IMG/VR virus record: IMGVR_UViG_3300021959_010405
Location: 1-64,000 of that record
Direction: 5' to 3' (one strand)
Length of the DNA stretch: 64,000 nt
Source: a virus
A model generated the notes under the pieces. That model saw only the letters and a program-made list of their open reading frames with translations, was not told where the DNA came from and searched no databases. A program made the position numbers and the translations under genes. The first letter of the stretch is position 1. The number at the start of each line of letters is the position of its first letter. Positions 4,907 to 51,644 of this stretch are shown in pieces.

Positions 4907-7900
4907 GCGATCATATAAAAACAGATTACGTATTTTTCAGAACTAAAAACTTTACGGGGAATTATGCAACAAGTGGATATGCTTTGAGTATATCTCCCTT
5001 TACCTTTTTACCTGATGTTTCACAAAGCGTTCTTTATTCTAAGCAAAGGATACTCTGGGATTTCGGTGATGGTACTACATCCCAAGAATTGTGCGCATCT
5101 CATTACTATACATCGCCAGGAACATATACTGTATCGCTATATCTATATAATAGCGCTGGTGATTCTTTTATTGACTCTTTTAGTACAGCTGTTACTGTAG
5201 ATAATTATATAACAGATACAATAACACTATCTAGCGACTCTAATTTTGTTCAAGAAGCAGGTAGTATAGGCAATGTTAATGGTATAACTGTTATTAGATA
5301 TAATAGCTGGCAATCTTATAATGCTCTTTCTGCAGATGGGTATACTATTAACCTATACGCATCAGGTAGTAATGATGATTTCTTTGATGAAGAAACATAC
5401 AATAAAACAAAATATGGGCATCTAGACTCGTATAATAAATTTTATTCTAAAGATTACAATAATGTATCGCAACGCTATGATTTAGTCCCTAGAGAGAGTG
5501 TACAGACATCGAATAACCTTCTGTACGCAAAAGTTAGTGGTGAAGATTTAATATTATGCGATAGGAGTGAAGATAATGCAGTATTTGTGGGATCCTATGG
5601 GACAGCAAAAATATATTTTTCAGCTGACAGACCTTCGATTGATGGTTTATGGTTTAGAGAAAGAACTCCAGTATTAATTTTCGCAAGTTTTGATACTTCA
5701 AATTTCAAAAGCAGAATATCTCAAGAAAATAATTATACTGTAGATAATTCCTTACCCTACTTAAACTCTATTACAACTAATGCAGGATTTGTAATCACTC
5801 CTCAGTTAAGTGTAAATCAGCTCTCATTTTCGTCTAACGGGATAGACGGTATAGGTGATAATGAGCAAGTGTTTAATATTAACCCGACCCAGTACGTTGA
5901 GACTAAAATCCCAGTTGTCATAAAAGTAAAAGATGCTGATAACTATCCGACAAAATACATACCAACTCTCACAGCTGTTGATTCAATATCGAATAATTAT
6001 GAAATAAAAATAGATGTATTGAGCGGTGACGGAGATTTGGTGAGTGAAGCTGCGCAGCCAGTTATAGTATCAGATTTTTCCGGAGTATCTTCATATGATT
6101 CAGGAGGCTACTGGAAAGGGTTTTTATACTTCCCCAGCACATTTTTAGCTAGCAATAGCGCTAATACTTTAACCAATATTCATTTATCAGCTAATACTAC
6201 TATATATGAGCAATACAATTATGTAAAAGACCCTACGCCATTAGCATTTGTAGGAATGCCAAGCGCTGGGGACATATCTAGAGTAAACATAATACAAGAC
6301 TTTAATGTATGCAACGGAGACTCTTTAAAAACGAGAGGTAAAGCAGAATCTGGATTTAATATTAGTACTAATAATGAGCCTTTATCAAATATATCAGTCC
6401 AGGTAGTGCCTGAGGAAATATCTGATATAGGATCATACTACAACATTTGGGTAACGGATGATAATAATAATAGGTTGCAGAAATATGACTCGTTCGGCAA
6501 TTTGTTAATAACAAGAAATTTAACATATAACCCATATCAGATCGCCGCTGACAGTGAAAAGAATGTTTGGGTTTCATTATTTGATAGTAAACGAGTATTT
6601 AAATATGATTCAAACGGACTTAGCCTACAGTCTACGATAGCGTTTTCATCTAACCCTACTGTCAGCGCTACAGCGATCGAAGTTGATAGTTTAGATAATG
6701 TTTGGGTAGCATATAATGATACTACTGAGTTGTCCGCGGCTCTTGTAAAGTTCAGTACAGATGGGACTCAACTATCTAGTGTATATTTAACTGCGGGATA
6801 TATAATAGGGGATATAGCTGTTACACAAGATAATGATTTATGGGTTACAATGCAGGACACAGCAACTGCGAGTGAGTTAGCTAATTATAATGATCTTATA
6901 GGTTATCATGATGATAGCGCTGGAACAACATCTACAGTTTATGGGGTTTCAGGTAGAGCTAGCTATATTACTATTGATGTTGATAATAATCCATATTTTA
7001 TCAACAACACAAATACAGTAATAAAATTATCCGCTACTAATTATTCTCCAACGGTAATTAGCTTACCAGAATCAGATAATACAAATGCTCTCGAATCTGA
7101 TTTGACCGGGATTGCATCCACTGCTGGTAAAGATGTAATTGTAATTAATAATTCCCGAAGTAGCCTAATGGTTATTGATACAGTCGCTGCAGCATATGAT
7201 ACTGAATATGTTATTAATGGTGTTGCCGGAAATGAAATATCTACGTTAGGGGATTGGACTGGGTTTGATTGGATTTTAAAATACTCCCCAAGAACCAATA
7301 CCCTTTCTGGGTCAGTCTCCGGAGTCAGTAGCAAGTTTAATGTTTTTAATGTTGAAGATAGATATCTCTTTGGCAAAACTAATGAGGATTTTGACACTGC
7401 AGAACTCTATAAAGATTTAAGATATCAAGAAGCTCTATTTGACGATAGTAATTTATTTGATGTATTTATAAAATCTATTGTTGGTAATGTTGATTCAGAC
7501 CCTACCAGCTTGGGTAAAACCATGTATGAAAAAGCAGCAAATTTCGTATCTAATAATCAGGATATAGATACATGCGAAATTGACGCTTTATATAGTATAT
7601 GTAAGCTATTCGATGAAAATCTCGAATATTTTGATCAATTCAGATTTACATCCCCCGCTACAATAAAGAGACTAATTAATTTAATATCTATAAAGCAGTC
7701 CAAACTATGGGGTGGTAGAAATAAATTTGATAGGGATTTCGATGTAAACAATTATGACCCATCTATTAATAATTACTTCGGTCTAAATCTCGGTGAAAAA
7801 CTCGATATATCTACTACAATACTAACTGCTGGCAGCGCATCTGAACCGATAGTAGCTTATAGCAAATTCGGCGAAAAATATACCTATATCAACACTAACA

Positions 7901-11802: not shown

Positions 11803-14800
11803 ATGGATGTAGTAGATTTTAATGACAGTGCTAAGTGTCTGAGTGCGGATTATATCGATAGCGATAATATAGAGCTGAGTGTTAATAGCATACAGGTAGA
11901 GCAAGGAATTAATATATTTGATGTACCAGCTTTAAATTCACTCAAGGATTCAAAAATAGGTAACTACAGCGCGCTATATCTTACAGATAAGAAGTATGGT
12001 AGCGATATTGTTTCATTTAAAACAATAAGCGAGATACCAAGAACAAAAATTATAACCTATATTGCTACAACATCCAACGCAGATAAAACACCAGAAAAAT
12101 ATTTACATATAGAGCCTGGCACAGTTGGTACTAATAGTGTAGCTGCTTACTCGTTCAAATCTCCAAATCAAATCAAAGATGTAAATAGAATCTTTTTTGA
12201 AATAGATGTATTATCAGATAGATATTGCCGGGTTCTGCATAGAGATGAAAATAGATTTTATTACTTAACAGTAAATCAAGATTTAGATTTTTATTTTGCG
12301 GATAGAGACTATCAAAATACATCATTTAATGTGATCGATGATAGCGTATTTGAATATATTATAGATGAGGAAGGCGACGATGTAGTTTTTTACAAGGCAT
12401 TAAGCGCTACGCCGGCTGTTGGGAATGATGTGAAGATATTATCGTTCAATGATAACAAATTAACTCTCAATACTCCAGCATCTGCCGGGATTATATTGTT
12501 TGATAATAGCAATAGATTTAAAATAGATTTCGTCAATAGATATAATAGCATAACACCTAAGCTTGACACATCTTGGGTATCATATGATATAATTGATAGT
12601 ATTAATATAAATTCATCAAAGAGCTCCTTTAAAGAAAGAAATAGTTATCTATTCTCTACACAATACAGTAACGCTACCGGCAATGAATTAAAATTTAATT
12701 TGTTACCTTTAAAAGATAATTTTTCTGAAAGAGATAATCAGCATAGAGGTGATTATATAACTCAATACACTAATAAAAATACTCCTAACGTAGATATGAG
12801 GGAGTATGAAAAAATCCATATAGGGCCTCGGCAAGAAAGTAATAATAATGATATATCTCTTTCATATACATTTTATAACTCAGACTATGTATTTCTCCCA
12901 GACCAGTATACAGTTTTTACAACACCTAAATCGCTATACCCCTACTCAAAAATTAATGTTAATGATACATTGATAGCTAAAAATGGCGCACTAGGTGGTG
13001 ATTCACCACACACATCAGATAAAATATTTTGCAAGCTCGATCAAGGGAATGCTAACCCTACTGATGGAACATATTTATGTACCTGGCTATCAGGAGGAGA
13101 CAAAGACACTATAGGCGTGTGGGTTGACAGATTTTATAATCCAACACTAACATCTAAAATAGAGGCCTTATCATCAGTGTCAGTAAAGCTATTTGATTTT
13201 ACCGACCCATCAGAATGCGCTATAGAGAGTGGCAATATAAGAGATCGAAATTATTACGATAGAAAAAGCAGCCTAGTATTTGAGGAAGACAAGCAATATA
13301 TTTATGAGAGAATAGGTAATGAATATGTGACAGAATACTTGAAGCATCTCGATCAATATTCTCTTATAGATAAATTTAGCTTAATAGGTGCTGATGGGTC
13401 TAGACTCGATTCAATACCAACATCAGAAGATACGCAACTCTTTAATTTAACAAATGCGTACTATACTCTCTCGAACTATGATGCTATAGACAAGCAAATT
13501 ACCATATCGTTTTGGCTCGATACTGATGATTGGTCTAAACCAGTAGGGTACTCTATAGCCGGAAATTTAACAAACAGGGGTATAGGAATTTTAAATGATA
13601 CTATAATAACACCCTTTATAACATTACATTATCAAAATATATTACATATATACAATACTTCTTTTGATCTTATCGATAGTATAGACTTTAAAGAGCCAAT
13701 AAGAGATATAATACGTGAGGATTCGCTCGATAATTTTTATATTGTTACAGACTACCAAAATATTTTTAAAGTTCAATCTAACGGGGCTGTGTTCGATAAA
13801 GCATCTATAGGTATTGTCGGTGAGTACGAAAACTATCTCATAAAGGGCAATAAAATATATTTTCTACACGACGATAAAACTATAACAATATTTGACACAG
13901 TGCAAGAGACATTTGATGATACTACTACGGTAGAAATACCGGATGAGAGTGGACTACCGCAGAATATCAACTCATTAGTTTATGATAATGTATCGGAAAG
14001 CTTAGTAGGGTCTCGAGGGGATAAGTCAGTAAAGATAGATGATAATAACTATGTGTTTGTTGTAGATAATAAGACACTTGTTAAGGAGAGTATAGATCAC
14101 TCTAAACGAACTGTTTTAATGTCATCTTCAACCTCTATAAAAGATTTTGTAATTGATGATAATTCATACATATATGTATTGCATGATAATAATAAACTAT
14201 CTAAATATACTAAAGATAGATTAAGAGTGTATCAAATAGAAATAACTGACTCCACAACTAATAATGATGAGTTGGAAGCTATAGCTATTGATTTAGTTAG
14301 AGAGTATACATCAAACGGTTTAGAGCAATACCCTATTGCCATATGCAATAATGATCAACAAAAATTATATGGCGCTACAATAAATGAAACAGACGGGTCA
14401 GTAGTAACTAAGCAATTAAATGACATTTACGGTAAATTTTATGATAAGTGCGATCAGTTCTATCTGGATAATAGAAGATACAATCTTACAAACTATAGCT
14501 ATTTAAAAGAAGAGGCTGGGAGTACAAATACACTCTCTTTCATAACGAAGTTAGATAATATCTATAATAATCGAACATCTTTAAACTCTAAGATTGAATA
14601 TAATATAGAGTCACTCCCTCCAGGGCAACACCATTTTGTATACAGGATAGATACAATAACTGGCAATATTACCGTCTTCGTTGATGGTATTAAAGTTGAG
14701 AATGTTAAATTCGAGCCTGGCAAATTCGCTCTGCAGAGTATATTCGATGAGGGACTTTTTATAGGAGGTACAGGATTTAACAATAATGTATTATTAGGGG

Positions 14801-36049: not shown

Positions 36050-36346
36050 TTAGTCGTCGTGGCTAGCTCTCCATATGAGATCTTCCCACTTATTAAGGAG
36101 TTCACCCATCACAACTTGAATCTCTTCAAAGTCGCCATCATAGTTAAGTCCTGGGCCACCGCGGGTTTTATTGATATGTTTATTTAAATTGGATCCCTTT
36201 CTTAATACATTTGAAAGAGCGTCCACCGCCCTAGTAACATCATCTACCGACATATTGTTTAAGGCTTCGGCAAGGATTTTAAGCTTATACTCTTTAGCGC
36301 TTATTTTTTTATAATTTTCAAAAATTATTTTTGATTCATTATTCAT
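36050..36346 (-). CDS. Tagged late protein A (98 aa)
   Basis: It begins MNNESKIIFENYKKISAKEY, the N-terminal tag shared with the next gene and with the gene at 50922. The body (AEALNNMSVDDVTRAVDALS, FEEIQVVMGELLNKWEDLIW) is a small helical acidic domain unlike the other two. The late octamer ACTAAATA at 36359-36352 is five bases before the ATG. Promoter and tag together resemble the modules at 36740-36817 and 50891-50968. By analogy with the T4 internal head proteins, the tag may direct the protein into the prohead and be cut near IFE. That is an inference. Confidence 0.7.
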   Translation of the reverse strand: MNNESKIIFENYKKISAKEYKLKILAEALNNMSVDDVTRAVDALSNVLRKGSNLNKHINKTRGGPGLNYDGDFEEIQVVMGELLNKWEDLIWRASHDD

Positions 36347-36393: not shown

Positions 36394-36786
36394 TTAAGCA
36401 TCGGCCATGCCTTGGCCTGCCATATCCATCCAGAGATGGTAAGCAAAAGTACCCTCTTCGTGAGGGTTGTTACCTTCAAGACCACCAGGCTTTGGGAGAT
36501 GGTATCCCATACCAGCGTCATAACCAAGACCGTATGCGCCGATAAAATCTTTGTGGTCGCGAGCAATCTTGTCAAACATCGCAAACTGCTTAAGGTCAAG
36601 CGGTTTCATACTTTGGTCAAAATCCTCTTTAGTTGCACTGATCCTCTTTGAATTGTCGAGAAGTTCCTGCATACCTTCTTCGTCAGTAGGGACTTCAATC
36701 GTAGACTCGGTAATGCCTTCAATCTTAGTCTCTTTATTGTTTATTTTTTTGTAATTTTCGAAAATTAATTCTGAGTCTTTATTCAT
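36394..36786 (-). CDS. Tagged late protein B (130 aa)
   Basis: It begins MNKDSELIFENYKKINNKET, almost identical to the tag at 50922 (MNKDSELIFENYKSINVKQL). The body is unrelated: an acidic linker, then a helical stretch (SMKPLDLKQFAMFDKIARDH) and a Gly-rich C-terminus (GAYGLGYDAGMGYHLPKPGG, then AYHLWMDMAGQGMADA). No family is recognised. By eye its base composition is slightly more GC-rich than its neighbours downstream of the tag. It has its own late octamer. The position beside gene A, with a homologous intergenic stretch, implies tandem duplication followed by exchange of the body. Confidence 0.7.
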   Translation of the reverse strand: MNKDSELIFENYKKINNKETKIEGITESTIEVPTDEEGMQELLDNSKRISATKEDFDQSMKPLDLKQFAMFDKIARDHKDFIGAYGLGYDAGMGYHLPKPGGLEGNNPHEEGTFAYHLWMDMAGQGMADA

Positions 36787-36856: not shown

Positions 36857-37237
36857 TTAATATATTCCGATCTCCTTAAGACCTTCTTCAATTTTGCTCT
36901 TGATAAAACTCTCTCCAACACCAGGATTGCGGCGAGCGATATCCCGAGTCTCGCTTTCGACAAAGTGAACAATGGACTCAACCGGAGCGTCGCCAGATTC
37001 AACAATTTCTGCTAGACTCTCAACTACGGACTCGATCTCGTTTTTAAGATCTTCGTTCATATCATATTTTTCTCTAATTTCAACAATACCTTTGCGAATA
37101 AAAGCTCCGGACTGAGGATCGATCCAATGAGCTTCAACAACAACCTTATCAGGAAGGTCGTTTTCAACTAATCTAGGAGCGACTGGTTGACCGCTTATAG
37201 GGGAAGGTATATTTACAGGTCGTACAAACTGATTCAT
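36857..37237 (-). CDS. Conserved late hypothetical protein of marine T4-like phages (126 aa)
   Basis: It begins MNQFVRPVNIPSPISGQPVA and contains VVVEAHWIDPQSGAFIRKGI. From memory, this beta-rich block is conserved among marine T4-like phages. The C-terminal half is helical and acidic (NEIESVVESLAEIVESGDAP, ending SKIEEGLKEIGIY). Function is unknown. The late octamer CATAAATA at 37250-37243 is five bases upstream, so it is expressed late although it lies beside replication genes on the same strand. Confidence 0.7.
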   Translation of the reverse strand: MNQFVRPVNIPSPISGQPVAPRLVENDLPDKVVVEAHWIDPQSGAFIRKGIVEIREKYDMNEDLKNEIESVVESLAEIVESGDAPVESIVHFVESETRDIARRNPGVGESFIKSKIEEGLKEIGIY

Positions 37238-37242
37238 ACACT

Positions 37243-37250
37243 TATTTATG
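37243..37250 (-). promoter_or_regulatory. Late-promoter-like octamer CATAAATA
   Basis: Five bases before the ATG at 37237. Confidence 0.6.
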
Positions 37251-37285
37251 TAAAACTATGCAAATAACTTACTAATTTGGAGAAG

Positions 37286-39058
37286 TTAACGCCGACGACG
37301 ACCACGCCTTCTAGTCTCGTCATCAATATTCGGGTCCGAATCATTTAGCTTCTTTGGGCTCTTACCAGGATTGCTCGAGTCAACCCCGTCGTAGTTGTTA
37401 CCATGACCGTTATTTTGTTTAAGAGCTGCATCTTCCTCGTCAGTCAAATTTCTAGAGCAATCAATCGAGCCGACGTCAGTCTCAACCTCCTCATAAAAAC
37501 TGACCAGAAATGCTAGATCTTGAAGATCGAACCCACTGCTACTTACATCCGTATGGGTCAACTCGACCAAGTAAATCACATCCCTCGAGCCGATCTTTAT
37601 CCTACCTTCCGAATCGAGAAATGGCAGAAGGAAGGACTCGATCGAGGGCTGCTGATACAGGGGCGTTGTTGTCGGAGGGACATCACCATTCCGAAGGGCC
37701 CTTACATTTTGTGAAACCGAGCGGGAGTCGAACGTTGAACTCCAATACCCGTCATGGCGTACGTAGCGTCCACTGAAATCGAGAGTGTCTCCGCTAGCCA
37801 ACTTTGTCGACCAAACAATCTTGTTTGGATTAATACGATCATTCGTATCAAAGAAAAAGCTTTTTGAGGAACCTCCATTCTGACTCACCCTTCCTTGCGT
37901 AGGTACCCATTCCCAGTGAACAACTTTATCACGCCAATTCTTCCAAACTCTCTTAACAGAGGCGCCAAGTACCCTAACATCAGCGAAGACGCAACGATCA
38001 GCTCGGACCGTTCCTGTATTTTCAATGGACACAATATCCGAAACAGCCTCAGGAACAGTAACATTCCACGATAGTGTTGGGTGAGTACCCGCTTGAACTT
38101 GAGTCGGGCTAGCAATCAATGTACCAACGGGGATGATCGGAGATTCTTCCTGTCCCAACATTAAAGCTGGTACTGCTGTCAGCATAATGAATATTAAGGC
38201 AAATAATTTACTAATAGTATTATTTAAAACGCTTTTCATAAAGAAAACGTCATGCCATTTACTTTCTTGCTTAAGAATACCGTTAAGATTAAATTTTTCG
38301 CAGATATTTTTAAACGTCTTGAAGTTAGGCTCAAATTCTGCATCAGGAATCTGACTATCATAAAACTTATACTCATCTACCCACATCTCATTGTGACTAT
38401 TATCTAGATCAATAAGCTCTCTATTTTTATCAACAATATCTTGTTGTTCTTGTGTCAGTATCTTTTCTCCTTTGATAATAGCAAGAGCTCTTTTATTACC
38501 AAACCCCTCTACGCCTTCAATATTGTCTGACTTATCACCAACAATACACTTATACTCACAAAATCTATTCGGATGCATGCCATATTTCTCATACATTGTG
38601 GGAATATCAAACAATATCTTTTTAATTGGTGAAAATACTTTAGTTTCTGCAGAAACTAATTGTAAAAGATCTGTATCCGCAGAAATAATGACATTCTCGC
38701 CTGGAAGCTTTTTTGATAGCCAGAAAATAATATCATCTGCTTCACCTCTCTTAGGATATACATTAATAATACCTAGTGACTCAAATAGATTCTCAATAAC
38801 ACTGGTAAGTTCATGGACCTGCGCATTATATTCATTATCTCTTGTTTCCTTATACACAGAATCACCTTCCTTTCTGAAAGCTACCTCTGAACTCTTACGC
38901 ATATCCCATGCGCAGTATATCTTTGTTGGTTCAAACTTTTCTACATAGGATTTAATAGATGTCAACACAATAGAGAGGTGATTTACACCACCCCTACTAT
39001 TTGATACCCAGTAGGCTCTATGTACAAGATTATTACCGTCAATTATTAGATTTTTCAT
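37286..39058 (-). CDS. rnh: RNase H/flap exonuclease fused in frame to a signal-peptide protein
   Basis: Residues 1-273 (MKNLIIDGNNLVHRAYW onward, start at 39058) are a T4 RNase H-type 5'-nuclease that removes RNA primers. All metal-binding acids are visible: IIDGNN, YCAWDMR, GEADDII, SADTDLL and VGDKSDN, the last followed by the helix-hairpin GVEGFG. No stop follows. After HDVFF the frame continues as MKSVLNNTISKLFALIFIML then TAVPALMLGQ, a textbook signal peptide whose Met is at 38239. About 287 residues of a secreted, beta-rich protein follow, ending in a disordered VDSSNPGKSPKK segment and an Arg-rich tail. The second part is GC-richer. A late-type TTTAAATA lies inside it at 38228-38221. 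The native product may be one fusion or two proteins. Confidence 0.75.
   Translation of the reverse strand: MKNLIIDGNNLVHRAYWVSNSRGGVNHLSIVLTSIKSYVEKFEPTKIYCAWDMRKSSEVAFRKEGDSVYKETRDNEYNAQVHELTSVIENLFESLGIINVYPKRGEADDIIFWLSKKLPGENVIISADTDLLQLVSAETKVFSPIKKILFDIPTMYEKYGMHPNRFCEYKCIVGDKSDNIEGVEGFGNKRALAIIKGEKILTQEQQDIVDKNRELIDLDNSHNEMWVDEYKFYDSQIPDAEFEPNFKTFKNICEKFNLNGILKQESKWHDVFFMKSVLNNTISKLFALIFIMLTAVPALMLGQEESPIIPVGTLIASPTQVQAGTHPTLSWNVTVPEAVSDIVSIENTGTVRADRCVFADVRVLGASVKRVWKNWRDKVVHWEWVPTQGRVSQNGGSSKSFFFDTNDRINPNKIVWSTKLASGDTLDFSGRYVRHDGYWSSTFDSRSVSQNVRALRNGDVPPTTTPLYQQPSIESFLLPFLDSEGRIKIGSRDVIYLVELTHTDVSSSGFDLQDLAFLVSFYEEVETDVGSIDCSRNLTDEEDAALKQNNGHGNNYDGVDSSNPGKSPKKLNDSDPNIDDETRRRGRRRR
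38221..38228 (-). promoter_or_regulatory. Late-type octamer TTTAAATA inside the RNase H fusion gene
   Basis: Five bases after it is an in-frame ATT (38215-38213) that would begin I/M-SKLFALIFIMLTAVPALML, an ideal signal peptide. The spacing equals that of the real late promoters, which raises the possibility of separate late expression of the secreted part. Confidence 0.35.
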
Positions 39059-48957: not shown

Positions 48958-50322
48958 ATGACTAATGATACAGATCTAATTTTTGAAAGATATTGCAATA
49001 TACAAGAAGGTATTTTTCAGCGAGGGAGAGCCAAACTAAACGCATTCGGTGAAACTGATGAAAGTCTTCAGAATTTAATTAACCAATATACAAAAAAAAT
49101 AGGTAAACATGTAGGAGATTTAGAAGCTGATTTAAAAACATTTAAAGGAAGTCTTCAGCCAATAACTCAAGAAAAAATGGCGATTTTACTTAATAATTTA
49201 AATAGCGCAGGAGTCGAAAGTGCTCAATCCGCACTAGGTAAAATAGGTCATATGTTAGGTAGATTCGTCGGCGCTGCAGCTCCTGCAGCTGCAGTCACTG
49301 CATTAGCTGCTGGTACTGGTGGTTTAGGTGGAATAGCTACTGGAGCACTCGCAGGCGCAACTCGAGGGCTTCAACGTAATTTAACTAGGACTGATATCGA
49401 TACTAAAAATAAATTTGGAAATGTTGCAAAAACTACCGCTGCCGGCGCTGCGATTGGAGGTGTAAGTGACTTTGTTGCAAGCAAGTTAGCTAATGCACCT
49501 GATGCAGGATTTGAACCAGCAGGGCCACCTAGCGAGTTAGCTAATGCACCTAGCGAGTTAGCTAATGCACCTGATGCAGGATTGGACCTAGCAGGTGCAC
49601 CTAGCGAGTTAGCTAATGCACCTGATGCAGGATTGGACCTAGCAGGTGCACCTAGCGAGTTAGCTAATGCACCTCTACAGGATACCATTGGTGCAATGCC
49701 GGAGTTACCTCCTATGAATCCCGACCTTTTCCAAAATTTGCACAATTCTTCGTATGATCCAAATAGTATAGTAGATCAGGCTAAGATGTTGTTGCAACAA
49801 CAGGCGGAGCAGCAAGGAATAACTGATCCAAACGAAATTGCTAATTTCGTTTATAGAAATGGTGGTATTGAAACTCTAGATAGTGTAGGGGCTGAGGAAA
49901 TTATTAATAACTTTAATTCTACAGTGGACCAAATTGCAAGTCAAGCTATTGAACCGGGAATCACGTTTTCGGAATTACCAACAGATCTTAAGTCTAGCGC
50001 GGAAGGTCTCTATAATCAAATGATAGAAAAGGGTTATTCAGCTGAAGATGCATCAAATGAATTGAGTGGCATTAATGATATATTCGCCGGCACTAAGAGG
50101 GTATCAGGAGATGACGCTGCCGTGGAAGTGGTTAAAGATTATGTAAAAGGAGTCGCTGAGGATATAGCCAGCCCAGGAACTTCTAATAACACTCTTAATG
50201 TACTTCAAAACGCGGCGAGGCGCGGCAGGCTGACTGATGAAATGAAACAACTTTTTCTTAATAAAGCTATAGAAAGAGGAGCTACTGACGGAGAGTTACA
50301 GGCTATTATGAATTTAAATTAA
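48958..50322 (+). CDS. Tag-related late protein with 17-residue tandem repeats (454 aa)
   Basis: The N-terminus MTNDTDLIFERYCNIQEGIF resembles the tag MNKDSELIFENYK of three other genes here. It is followed by a helical segment and a Gly/Ala-rich, membrane-like segment at about residues 98-140 (FVGAAAPAAAVTALAAGTGG, LGGIATGALAGAT). Residues 178-239 are tandem repeats of SELANAPDAGLDLAGAP. The remainder is acidic and helical with low complexity. The Ala/Gly-rich stretch could insert into a membrane, which is notable if the protein is injected with DNA. No clear octamer precedes it, so it is probably transcribed with the 491-residue gene 15 bases upstream. Confidence 0.65.
   Translation: MTNDTDLIFERYCNIQEGIFQRGRAKLNAFGETDESLQNLINQYTKKIGKHVGDLEADLKTFKGSLQPITQEKMAILLNNLNSAGVESAQSALGKIGHMLGRFVGAAAPAAAVTALAAGTGGLGGIATGALAGATRGLQRNLTRTDIDTKNKFGNVAKTTAAGAAIGGVSDFVASKLANAPDAGFEPAGPPSELANAPSELANAPDAGLDLAGAPSELANAPDAGLDLAGAPSELANAPLQDTIGAMPELPPMNPDLFQNLHNSSYDPNSIVDQAKMLLQQQAEQQGITDPNEIANFVYRNGGIETLDSVGAEEIINNFNSTVDQIASQAIEPGITFSELPTDLKSSAEGLYNQMIEKGYSAEDASNELSGINDIFAGTKRVSGDDAAVEVVKDYVKGVAEDIASPGTSNNTLNVLQNAARRGRLTDEMKQLFLNKAIERGATDGELQAIMNLN
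49552..49674 (+). repeat. 51-bp tandem repeat inside the 454-residue late gene
   Basis: Units at 49552-49602 and 49603-49653 appear identical. A partial third unit lies at 49654-49674, and related partial units precede from about 49486. Each unit encodes SELANAPDAGLDLAGAP. The lack of synonymous drift points to recent expansion or ongoing slippage. Confidence 0.85.
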
Positions 50323-50338
50323 CCCCATTAATACATTA

Positions 50339-50893
50339 ATGAAAAAATATGACACAGATATTATTTTAGAGAAGCAATTATCACAAATTGATGAAGGTCT
50401 TCTAGATCGCATAAAAGCTAAAGCTTCTGGAGCTAAAGCTTTCCTCACAACTGACATGGGTAAAGGATTAGGTGGTATGAGTCAAAACTATCAAGAGACT
50501 GCCCAATCAAAGCTTATTGATAATAAGATTGAAAAAATACATAAAATTATATTAGATTTAGAAACAGATCTAATGAAAACTGCAGGAATGAGTACTGAGA
50601 CTTTAAAAAATCAATACCCTCAGATTTATCAGCAGTTACAGTTTTTAAGAAATTCAGTATCTCTTAACCCGCAACAACAGCAAGCCCCGCAACAACAGCA
50701 AGACCCGCAACAACAGCAAGACCCACAGCAACGCTCATTTAACCCCGGAGATGTAATTAAATACACTAGTACAAGAAACCCTCAAGGGGAGCAGGCTGAA
50801 GTTGTAGAGGTTTTGCAAAACGGAAATATACAGGTTAAGCCAGTAGGCAAATCTAATCCTGTTTTTGCTATATCCCCAAATCAAATTCTATAA
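50339..50893 (+). CDS. Tag-related late protein with poly-Gln repeats (184 aa)
   Basis: It begins MKKYDTDIILEKQLSQIDEG then LLDRIKAKASGAKAF. The first part is a diverged relative of the shared tag (D-T/S-x-L/I-I-F/L-E), and the second recalls the segment after the tag in the 454-residue protein. Residues 110-130 are Gln/Pro repeats (18-bp DNA repeats at about 50671-50735). The C-terminal 50 residues form a small beta domain (GDVIKYTSTRNPQGEQAEVV, NGNIQVKPVGKSNP) resembling a KOW/SH3-like fold. Upstream CATTAATA (50326-50333) has the right spacing but one base off the octamer core. The 3' end lies near the next tagged module. Confidence 0.6.
   Translation: MKKYDTDIILEKQLSQIDEGLLDRIKAKASGAKAFLTTDMGKGLGGMSQNYQETAQSKLIDNKIEKIHKIILDLETDLMKTAGMSTETLKNQYPQIYQQLQFLRNSVSLNPQQQQAPQQQQDPQQQQDPQQRSFNPGDVIKYTSTRNPQGEQAEVVEVLQNGNIQVKPVGKSNPVFAISPNQIL
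50671..50735 (+). repeat. 18-bp Gln/Pro-coding tandem repeats
   Basis: Three units of the type CCGCAACAACAGCAAGMC plus a degenerate fourth, coding for PQQQQA/D. Confidence 0.75.
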
Positions 50894-50968
50894 AAAAACA
50901 CCTAAAGACCTAAATAATATTATGAATAAAGACTCAGAATTAATCTTTGAAAATTATAAATCTATAAA
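50891..50968 (+). repeat. Promoter-plus-tag module, copy C
   Basis: It covers the sequence upstream of the ATG at 50922 and the first ~16 codons. It matches 36740-36817 (opposite strand, 14 kb away) at 68 of 78 positions by hand count; sequence outside the module is unrelated. Confidence 0.75.
50909..50916 (+). promoter_or_regulatory. Late-promoter-like octamer CCTAAATA (tagged gene C)
   Basis: Five bases (ATATT) before the ATG at 50922. It fixes that start over the in-frame ATG at 50865, which lies inside the previous gene. Confidence 0.6.
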
Positions 50969-51644
50969 TGTAAAACAGTTAATGCTCGAATCATCTTTTG
51001 ATACATTTGAGCGAAACGCGCCTAACGTAAATACTCTAGAAGAGGCGTATGCAATTTTAGATATATATGAGATGTTAGAGGAAGCTGGGTTTTTTGGAGC
51101 TGTAAAAAATGTAGCTCGAGGGGCTGGTAATACCTTAAAGGCAGGAGCTACTAAATTAAAAGCCGGAGCTCAACAAGTCGGTGACGTGGTAAAATCGGGA
51201 GCTCAACAAGCTGGTAGTGCCTTAAAGGCAGGAGGTGCTGGATTGGCAGCTGGAGCTCAACAAGTTGGTTCAAATGTAGCCGATATGGCCCGGACTGGAG
51301 CTGCCGTCTCGCAAGGTCAACAAGTAATTAAACAAGCCGCTACAGCTGCACAACAAATTATTGATCTCGTAAACAAAGCAAAGCAAATCTCTCCAGAAAC
51401 ATTCACAGGCTCGCAAGGTCGTGAGCTCGCTCAAAATATATCAAATCTTCCGCTTATAAAAATAATGGATTATTTAGATGAACTAGCTGCAAATACCACC
51501 GCTGCAGCTACGGCCGCTAGTGATAAAGGAATATTTGGAGGGGCCGGCGCTGCTGCAAAGCAGGCCGCTTCTAATGAATATCAACAATCTCAGCAAGCAG
51601 CACAACCAGCAGCACAACCAGCTGCAGCTGCTCAACCAGCTTAA
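50922..51644 (+). CDS. Tagged late protein C, Ala-rich amphipathic (240 aa)
   Basis: It begins MNKDSELIFENYKSINVKQL. A helix follows (LEEAYAILDIYEMLEEAGFF), then an 11-residue-period Ala/Gly/Lys/Gln-rich region (KAGATKLKAGAQQVGDVVKS, GAQQAGSALKAGGAG) like apolipoprotein or LEA-type amphipathic helices. The tail is Gln/Ala/Pro-rich. No catalytic motif is seen. The long amphipathic repeats could line the capsid interior, coat DNA or associate with membrane on ejection; these are inferences. Transcription should stop at the hairpin located 21 bases after the stop, inside the convergent QueC-like gene. Confidence 0.7.
   Translation: MNKDSELIFENYKSINVKQLMLESSFDTFERNAPNVNTLEEAYAILDIYEMLEEAGFFGAVKNVARGAGNTLKAGATKLKAGAQQVGDVVKSGAQQAGSALKAGGAGLAAGAQQVGSNVADMARTGAAVSQGQQVIKQAATAAQQIIDLVNKAKQISPETFTGSQGRELAQNISNLPLIKIMDYLDELAANTTAAATAASDKGIFGGAGAAAKQAASNEYQQSQQAAQPAAQPAAAAQPA

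Follow-up and report, generated by a model that had tools for sequence, protein, structure and literature searches.

Phages are known to encode inhibitors of host type IV pili, including PfsE, which binds PilC (PMC8764522), and Tip/Aqs1 (PilB) and Zip (PilZ) (PMC11656802). Other host-derived cargo genes of phages (morons) lie between genes, whereas the insert described here sits within a core replication gene, and neither a promoter nor a terminator belonging to it was seen. It resembles morons in its foreign GC content, its host origin, its absence from near relatives, and the existence of standalone forms in other phage contigs (L001 to L005 and L084). The interrupted gene encodes a phage 5'-3' exonuclease/flap endonuclease (PF02739, phrog_107) that shares with its relatives the domain, the acidic motifs, the length of 287 aa, and the T4-like replication-gene context but differs from them in a C-terminal, 304-residue foreign extension found in the window phage only. 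By "window" we mean the whole 64,000-nucleotide stretch that was analyzed (positions 1 to 64,000 of IMG/VR virus record IMGVR_UViG_3300021959_010405). Within it, a secreted-protein gene of Verrucomicrobiales was inserted into the last codons of the 5'-nuclease gene of a marine T4-like phage, flanked at both ends by a 17-bp direct repeat of nuclease-tail sequence, producing an in-frame fusion.

The virus record from which the window is taken spans 117 kb and carries T4-like PolB, clamp loader, helicase, and primase genes, and the nearest named polymerases are only 30 to 31% identical to its PolB. In G636, the long-sequence relative closest to the window phage (PolB 76/70% identical), the family B DNA polymerase is encoded in two ORFs (C1:14600-17322, loci L165 and L168; matching residues 1 to 493 and 494 to 869) and not in one gene as in the window, possibly reflecting an intervening sequence or a split polymerase. 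Separately, we observed that window proteins of differing length and position (36050-36346 and 36394-36786 on the minus strand, 50865-51644 on the plus strand, and, more weakly, 48958-50322 on the plus strand) have the N-terminal motif MN[KN][DE]S[EK][LI]IFENYK in common, which is reminiscent of the sequences that direct T4 internal proteins into the capsid.

An earlier note, made from the sequence alone, had proposed that one open frame joins a complete nuclease to a segment of different composition, and each part of this proposal held. The minus-strand ORF at 37286-39058 runs uninterrupted for 590 codons from Met39058 to its stop at 37286-37288. GC content is 0.33 (GC3, 0.27) in the nuclease part and 0.47 (GC3, 0.45) in the C-terminal part, a GC3 unmatched elsewhere in the window, most of whose genes are at ∼0.25. 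Residues 1 to 273 are matched by 5'-3' exonuclease models (PF02739, E = 1.7e-25; phrog_107 exonuclease, E = 5e-35). The N-terminal resolvase-like domain is present and the acidic cluster (IIDGNN, CAWDMR, GEADD, SADTD, and GDKSDN) is kept as in relatives; for the C-terminal SAM-fold/H3TH part, PF01367 gives E = 8.5e-9 and 36 bits, short of its cut-off of 40. The name RNase H, used in the same note, is loose, as the protein scores as a FEN/5'-3' exonuclease and falls short of T4 RNase H proper, with the RNaseH_C domain (PF09293) at 12.6 bits against a cut-off of 25 (E = 0.18). An AlphaFold2 model of the nuclease and junction was poor (pLDDT 65, 5 sequences) and was left out of the evidence.

Comparison with insert-free relatives located the native end of the nuclease. 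Five such nucleases (L006 to L010; 50 to 53% identical) end in ...FFIKNIMNSLIAELFSK-stop or ...FCIKSVMANIISELFS.-stop, and the more similar, nearest relative (L087) ends in FFMDNVLNNTIAKLFS-stop; the window counterpart of this last tail is FFMKSVLNNTISKLFA, after which the frame continues. Based on these tails, Met38239 together with the 12 residues behind it forms the native C-terminus of the nuclease and is not, as had been claimed, a textbook signal peptide opening a second gene. Met38239 as the start of the captured gene is accordingly ruled out, this being an ordinary nuclease residue also in L087, and the idea of a new mutation recruited for a start was dropped on the same grounds. The earlier note had also suggested checking where related phages stop. 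Of 80 relatives with a nuclease alignment, 79 reach a stop within the locus, all at query positions 275 to 295 and none fused, which rules out an ancient native domain of the phage lineage.

The feature coordinates are collected in Table 1. The two repeat copies, ATTAGTAAATTATTTGC and ATTAGTAAGTTATTTGC, are identical at 16 of 17 positions and bracket the insert; shuffles of the two junctions produced such a repeat in 0 of 4,000 cases. The right copy stands immediately after the captured gene's stop and continues as ISKLFA-TAG (37256-37276), followed by ATAAATAA and the next gene. As this native end survives behind the insert, the original stop was displaced and not lost, contrary to what had been supposed, and loss of the stop codon is ruled out. 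Closing the insert in silico yields a 287-aa nuclease with the same length and the same TAG as four insert-free relatives (L006, L007, L008, and L010). An IS element or transposon was also rejected; the 17-bp duplication is present, but the 922 bp contain no transposase and no inverted repeats at their ends.

Table 1. Features of the fused gene and its flanks (window coordinates)
Feature	Position	Strand	Basis or remark
Phage 5'-nuclease (FEN/5'-3' exonuclease type), residues 1-286 whole plus two bases of codon 287; native end ...FFMKSVLNNTISKLF(A)	38199..39058	-	Pfam/PHROG; alignment with insert-free relatives
Left copy of 17-bp direct repeat ATTAGTAAATTATTTGC, encoding nuclease tail ISKLF	38199..38215	-	
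Hydrophobic segment LFALIFIMLTAVPALMLG, hybrid of nuclease tail and captured gene's signal-peptide core	38153..38206	-	Alignments, hydropathy
Foreign DNA insert, 922 bp, without transposase or obvious terminal inverted repeats	37277..38198	-	
Secreted-protein domain of the captured gene, starting at QEESP (288 residues); 90-91% identity with standalone phage and Verrucomicrobiota genes	37289..38152	-	
C-terminal NGHGNNYDGVDSSNPG...RRGRRRR tail; NGHGNN part also found in further Verrucomicrobiales proteins, one of them prepilin-like	37289..37414	-	
Stop codon of fused frame, TAA, derived from captured gene	37286..37288	-	
Right copy of direct repeat ATTAGTAAGTTATTTGC, the displaced native nuclease end (ISKLF)	37260..37276	-	
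Original nuclease stop codon TAG, now orphaned	37256..37258	-	TAG also in L006, L007, L008, L010
Late-promoter-like ATAAATAA before next gene, as in insert-free relatives	37242..37249	-	
Following phage gene; relatives without the insert conserve this downstream flank	36857..37237	-	

We considered whether an assembler had joined a gene from Verrucomicrobiota or another phage into the phage contig, given that this is a metagenomic contig, the composition of the insert differs, and the fusion is not seen in other contigs. Such a chimera is highly improbable because both junctions lie within phage sequence, with 17 bp of the nuclease duplicated with one difference, and the captured gene is 14 to 15% divergent from every known copy, its private changes including GC-to-AT drift. 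A repeat of 17 bp is shorter than usual assembly words. A search for near relatives using the downstream gene returned one known contig.

Insertion may have occurred by short-homology (copy-choice) recombination or template switching. The standalone phage copies start with MNNKNKLFT (AATAAATTATTCACC) and have TAAATTATT in common with the nuclease tail, in register, so the "KLF.." start of a phage-type donor would account for the in-frame junction. The 3' flank of the insert, TTAACTTCTCCA, matches host copies and not the phage copy in L001, so the donor could have been either a phage or a host.

The captured DNA is 85 to 86% identical to L001 to L005 and L011/L012, with the identity spanning the whole gene and ending at sharp edges. 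A standalone 312-aa gene lies beside T4-like replication genes in phage contigs L001 to L004, with a partial copy in L005, and also occurs in two Verrucomicrobiota metagenome-assembled genomes (MAGs). The family is present in 85 of 289 genomes of Verrucomicrobiales, the order of the two MAGs, at up to 9 places per genome. The earlier note's proposals that a secreted-protein gene of host type was captured and that it came from Verrucomicrobiota were supported by these ∼90% identical standalone genes, by the distribution across the order, and by the nesting of the window copy in the host tree. In the rest of the phylum sample the family is nearly absent: 17 of 388 genomes match at E ≤ 1e-10, 13 of these genomes had already matched in the search of the order, and the remaining four match only partially. 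Phage contig L002 additionally carries a flavin-dependent halogenase/oxidoreductase-like gene (12958-14214) and an HSP20 gene (6297-6725).

Compared with the host members of this family (F2), the window copy is ∼90% identical over the 288-residue exported part, including the core and C-terminal tail, and the conserved core and invariant family residues are kept (alignment A1, 29 sequences). The host members differ in being standalone, with their own start and signal peptide, whereas the window copy is fused to the nuclease and lies outside the operon. It has not retained the family's start codon and N-terminal signal peptide apart from the hydrophobic core, the n-region being replaced by the nuclease tail. 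The closest host form has no match in Pfam or NCBIfam at the thresholds used, and the captured protein has none in PADLOC, no sequence or fold match in the PDB, and no significant match among the viral folds of BFVD; the gene is without a match among INPHARED phage records. A weak PHROG match (phrog_23810, E = 4e-4) falls in the C-terminal tail and belongs to a family of unknown function. AlphaFold2 modeling of the family gave a confident beta-rich core, with 122 residues above 90.

In Verrucomicrobiales, the F2 gene heads an operon of prepilin-like genes. At 8 of 10 inspected loci, its neighbors are prepilin-like genes, two more genes of secreted type, and one large membrane-anchored gene, and at three of the loci PilC/GspF-like (E = 1.5e-36) and PilB/GspE-like (E = 1.4e-89) genes are alongside. 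The window copy is not in a prepilin operon; its context is phage replication genes. A Verrucomicrobiales prepilin-like protein (L013:8567-10441) has the motif NGHGNNxDGVDSSN in common with the captured protein's C-terminus, and the tail with this motif suggests a shared surface-related tail.

In phylogenetic trees, the window copy and L001/L002 form a group (96/86 in one and 94/91 in another), next to host copy L011. Phage contig L084 encodes a separate, 250-aa family member that groups with host copy L038 (100/98), and a single origin of all phage copies was rejected (p-AU 5e-43). Thus, phages took up this family at least twice independently. The L084 member (5947-6699) is standalone and ∼50% identical, with a PhoH-like gene nearby.

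The captured domain contains 0 stops or frameshifts in 288 codons, and pairwise dN/dS of the captured gene is ∼0.07. Sites changed only in the window copy comprise 40 synonymous and 18 nonsynonymous changes, versus ∼40 nonsynonymous expected if neutral, and the window-branch omega is ∼0.2, above the pairwise value. The window copy is under purifying selection. Because the fusion was seen in one contig only among the sequences searched, the fused state could be of recent origin, with most of the selection signal possibly built up before it arose. The same restriction to a single contig would suit an accident of capture, in which a recent, neutral or mildly harmful fusion carries the captured tail as a passenger and is tolerated because the nuclease remains whole. 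The raised window-branch omega, the near identity of the repeat copies, and the lack of the gene in the other closest phages, G636 among them, point the same way. We nevertheless consider this account unlikely, given the intact codons with all invariant family residues, the purifying selection on the window branch, the repeated and independent recruitment of the family by phages, and a hydrophobic core whose length and hydropathy were kept despite the change in its sequence.

This hydrophobic segment, LFALIFIMLTAVPALMLG, equals the signal-peptide cores of the standalone genes in hydropathy, with the nuclease tail as its n-region. The paradox raised by the earlier note, a signal peptide in a cytoplasmic nuclease, therefore stands in altered form, as an internal hydrophobic segment behind the nuclease tail. 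Predicted from sequence features, the product may be a fusion anchored in the membrane, a secreted protein with its own translation start, or both. If translation started only at Met38239, a 29-residue signal peptide would take its n-region from the nuclease tail, and the main product would be the secreted protein. MKSVLNNTISKLFALIFIMLTAVPALMLG is indeed laid out like a signal peptide, and most start sites of the window phage are without a Shine-Dalgarno sequence anyway (41 of 49 starts checked, comprising 48 gene starts and 38239, have no match of ≥3 bases). Shine-Dalgarno enrichment is absent both in the window phage and in Verrucomicrobiales contigs, so its absence at 38239 is compatible with internal initiation. 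We regard this reading as possible, if somewhat unlikely, since Met38239 is a nuclease residue in an insert-free relative as well and no late promoter, TAAATA-like box, or Shine-Dalgarno sequence was found upstream of it. AT-rich TAAATA-like boxes occur ∼10 bases before many window gene starts. Alternatively, the undivided fusion could be the working product, with the replication nuclease tethered to the inner membrane by the hydrophobic segment and the captured domain exposed outside. The uninterrupted frame, complete nuclease, and internal position of the segment are in keeping with such tethering, but no relative has an anchor of this kind and we know of no need for one, making it quite improbable. 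The captured gene and the lack of Shine-Dalgarno sites fit a Verrucomicrobiota host for the phage, without proving it.

In the reading that we favor, the nuclease would stay cytoplasmic and, with its full length kept, is predicted to work as before, while the hydrophobic segment, as a signal peptide or anchor, would send the captured domain across the inner membrane, either from the fusion itself or from translation starting at Met38239. The exported domain would then act like the standalone phage and host forms on a host type IV pilus/type II secretion-like surface machine, the weakest step, and might stop further phage adsorption. Modification of a pilus-like surface system is most likely the purpose of export, as suggested by the family's place in a pilus/pseudopilus-type operon and its repeated recruitment by phages. 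Taken as a whole, from capture into the nuclease end and short-homology insertion through export to action on the surface system, we consider this explanation reasonably probable. A broader proposal is doubtful: that T4-like phages repeatedly steal an exported part of the pilus/secretion-like machine of their Verrucomicrobiota hosts to alter the cell surface, delivered in the window phage as a membrane-crossing extension of the replication nuclease, with the C-terminus of the nuclease serving also as the beginning of the export signal.

The fusion is a real and well-explained gene capture that involves an unnamed protein family and is unusual in where it lies and in a scar that can still be read. 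With both scars legible, the displaced native stop and the 17-bp repeat, it shows how in-frame fusions can arise in phages with the core gene retained. An undescribed exported family from a Verrucomicrobiales pilus-like operon, recruited by phages more than once, gives a testable lead, for a phylum about whose phages little is known, on phage receptors or superinfection exclusion; our literature search found no Verrucomicrobiota phages with pilus-linked exclusion. By analogy, the captured protein may share with PfsE, Tip/Aqs1, and Zip the role of a phage protein aimed at the pilus machine to exclude other phages. Those inhibitors, small proteins or peptides, target components in the cytoplasm or inner membrane, whereas the captured protein is large and exported and copies a component of the pilus operon, with a putative pilus role that derives from the operon association of its family.
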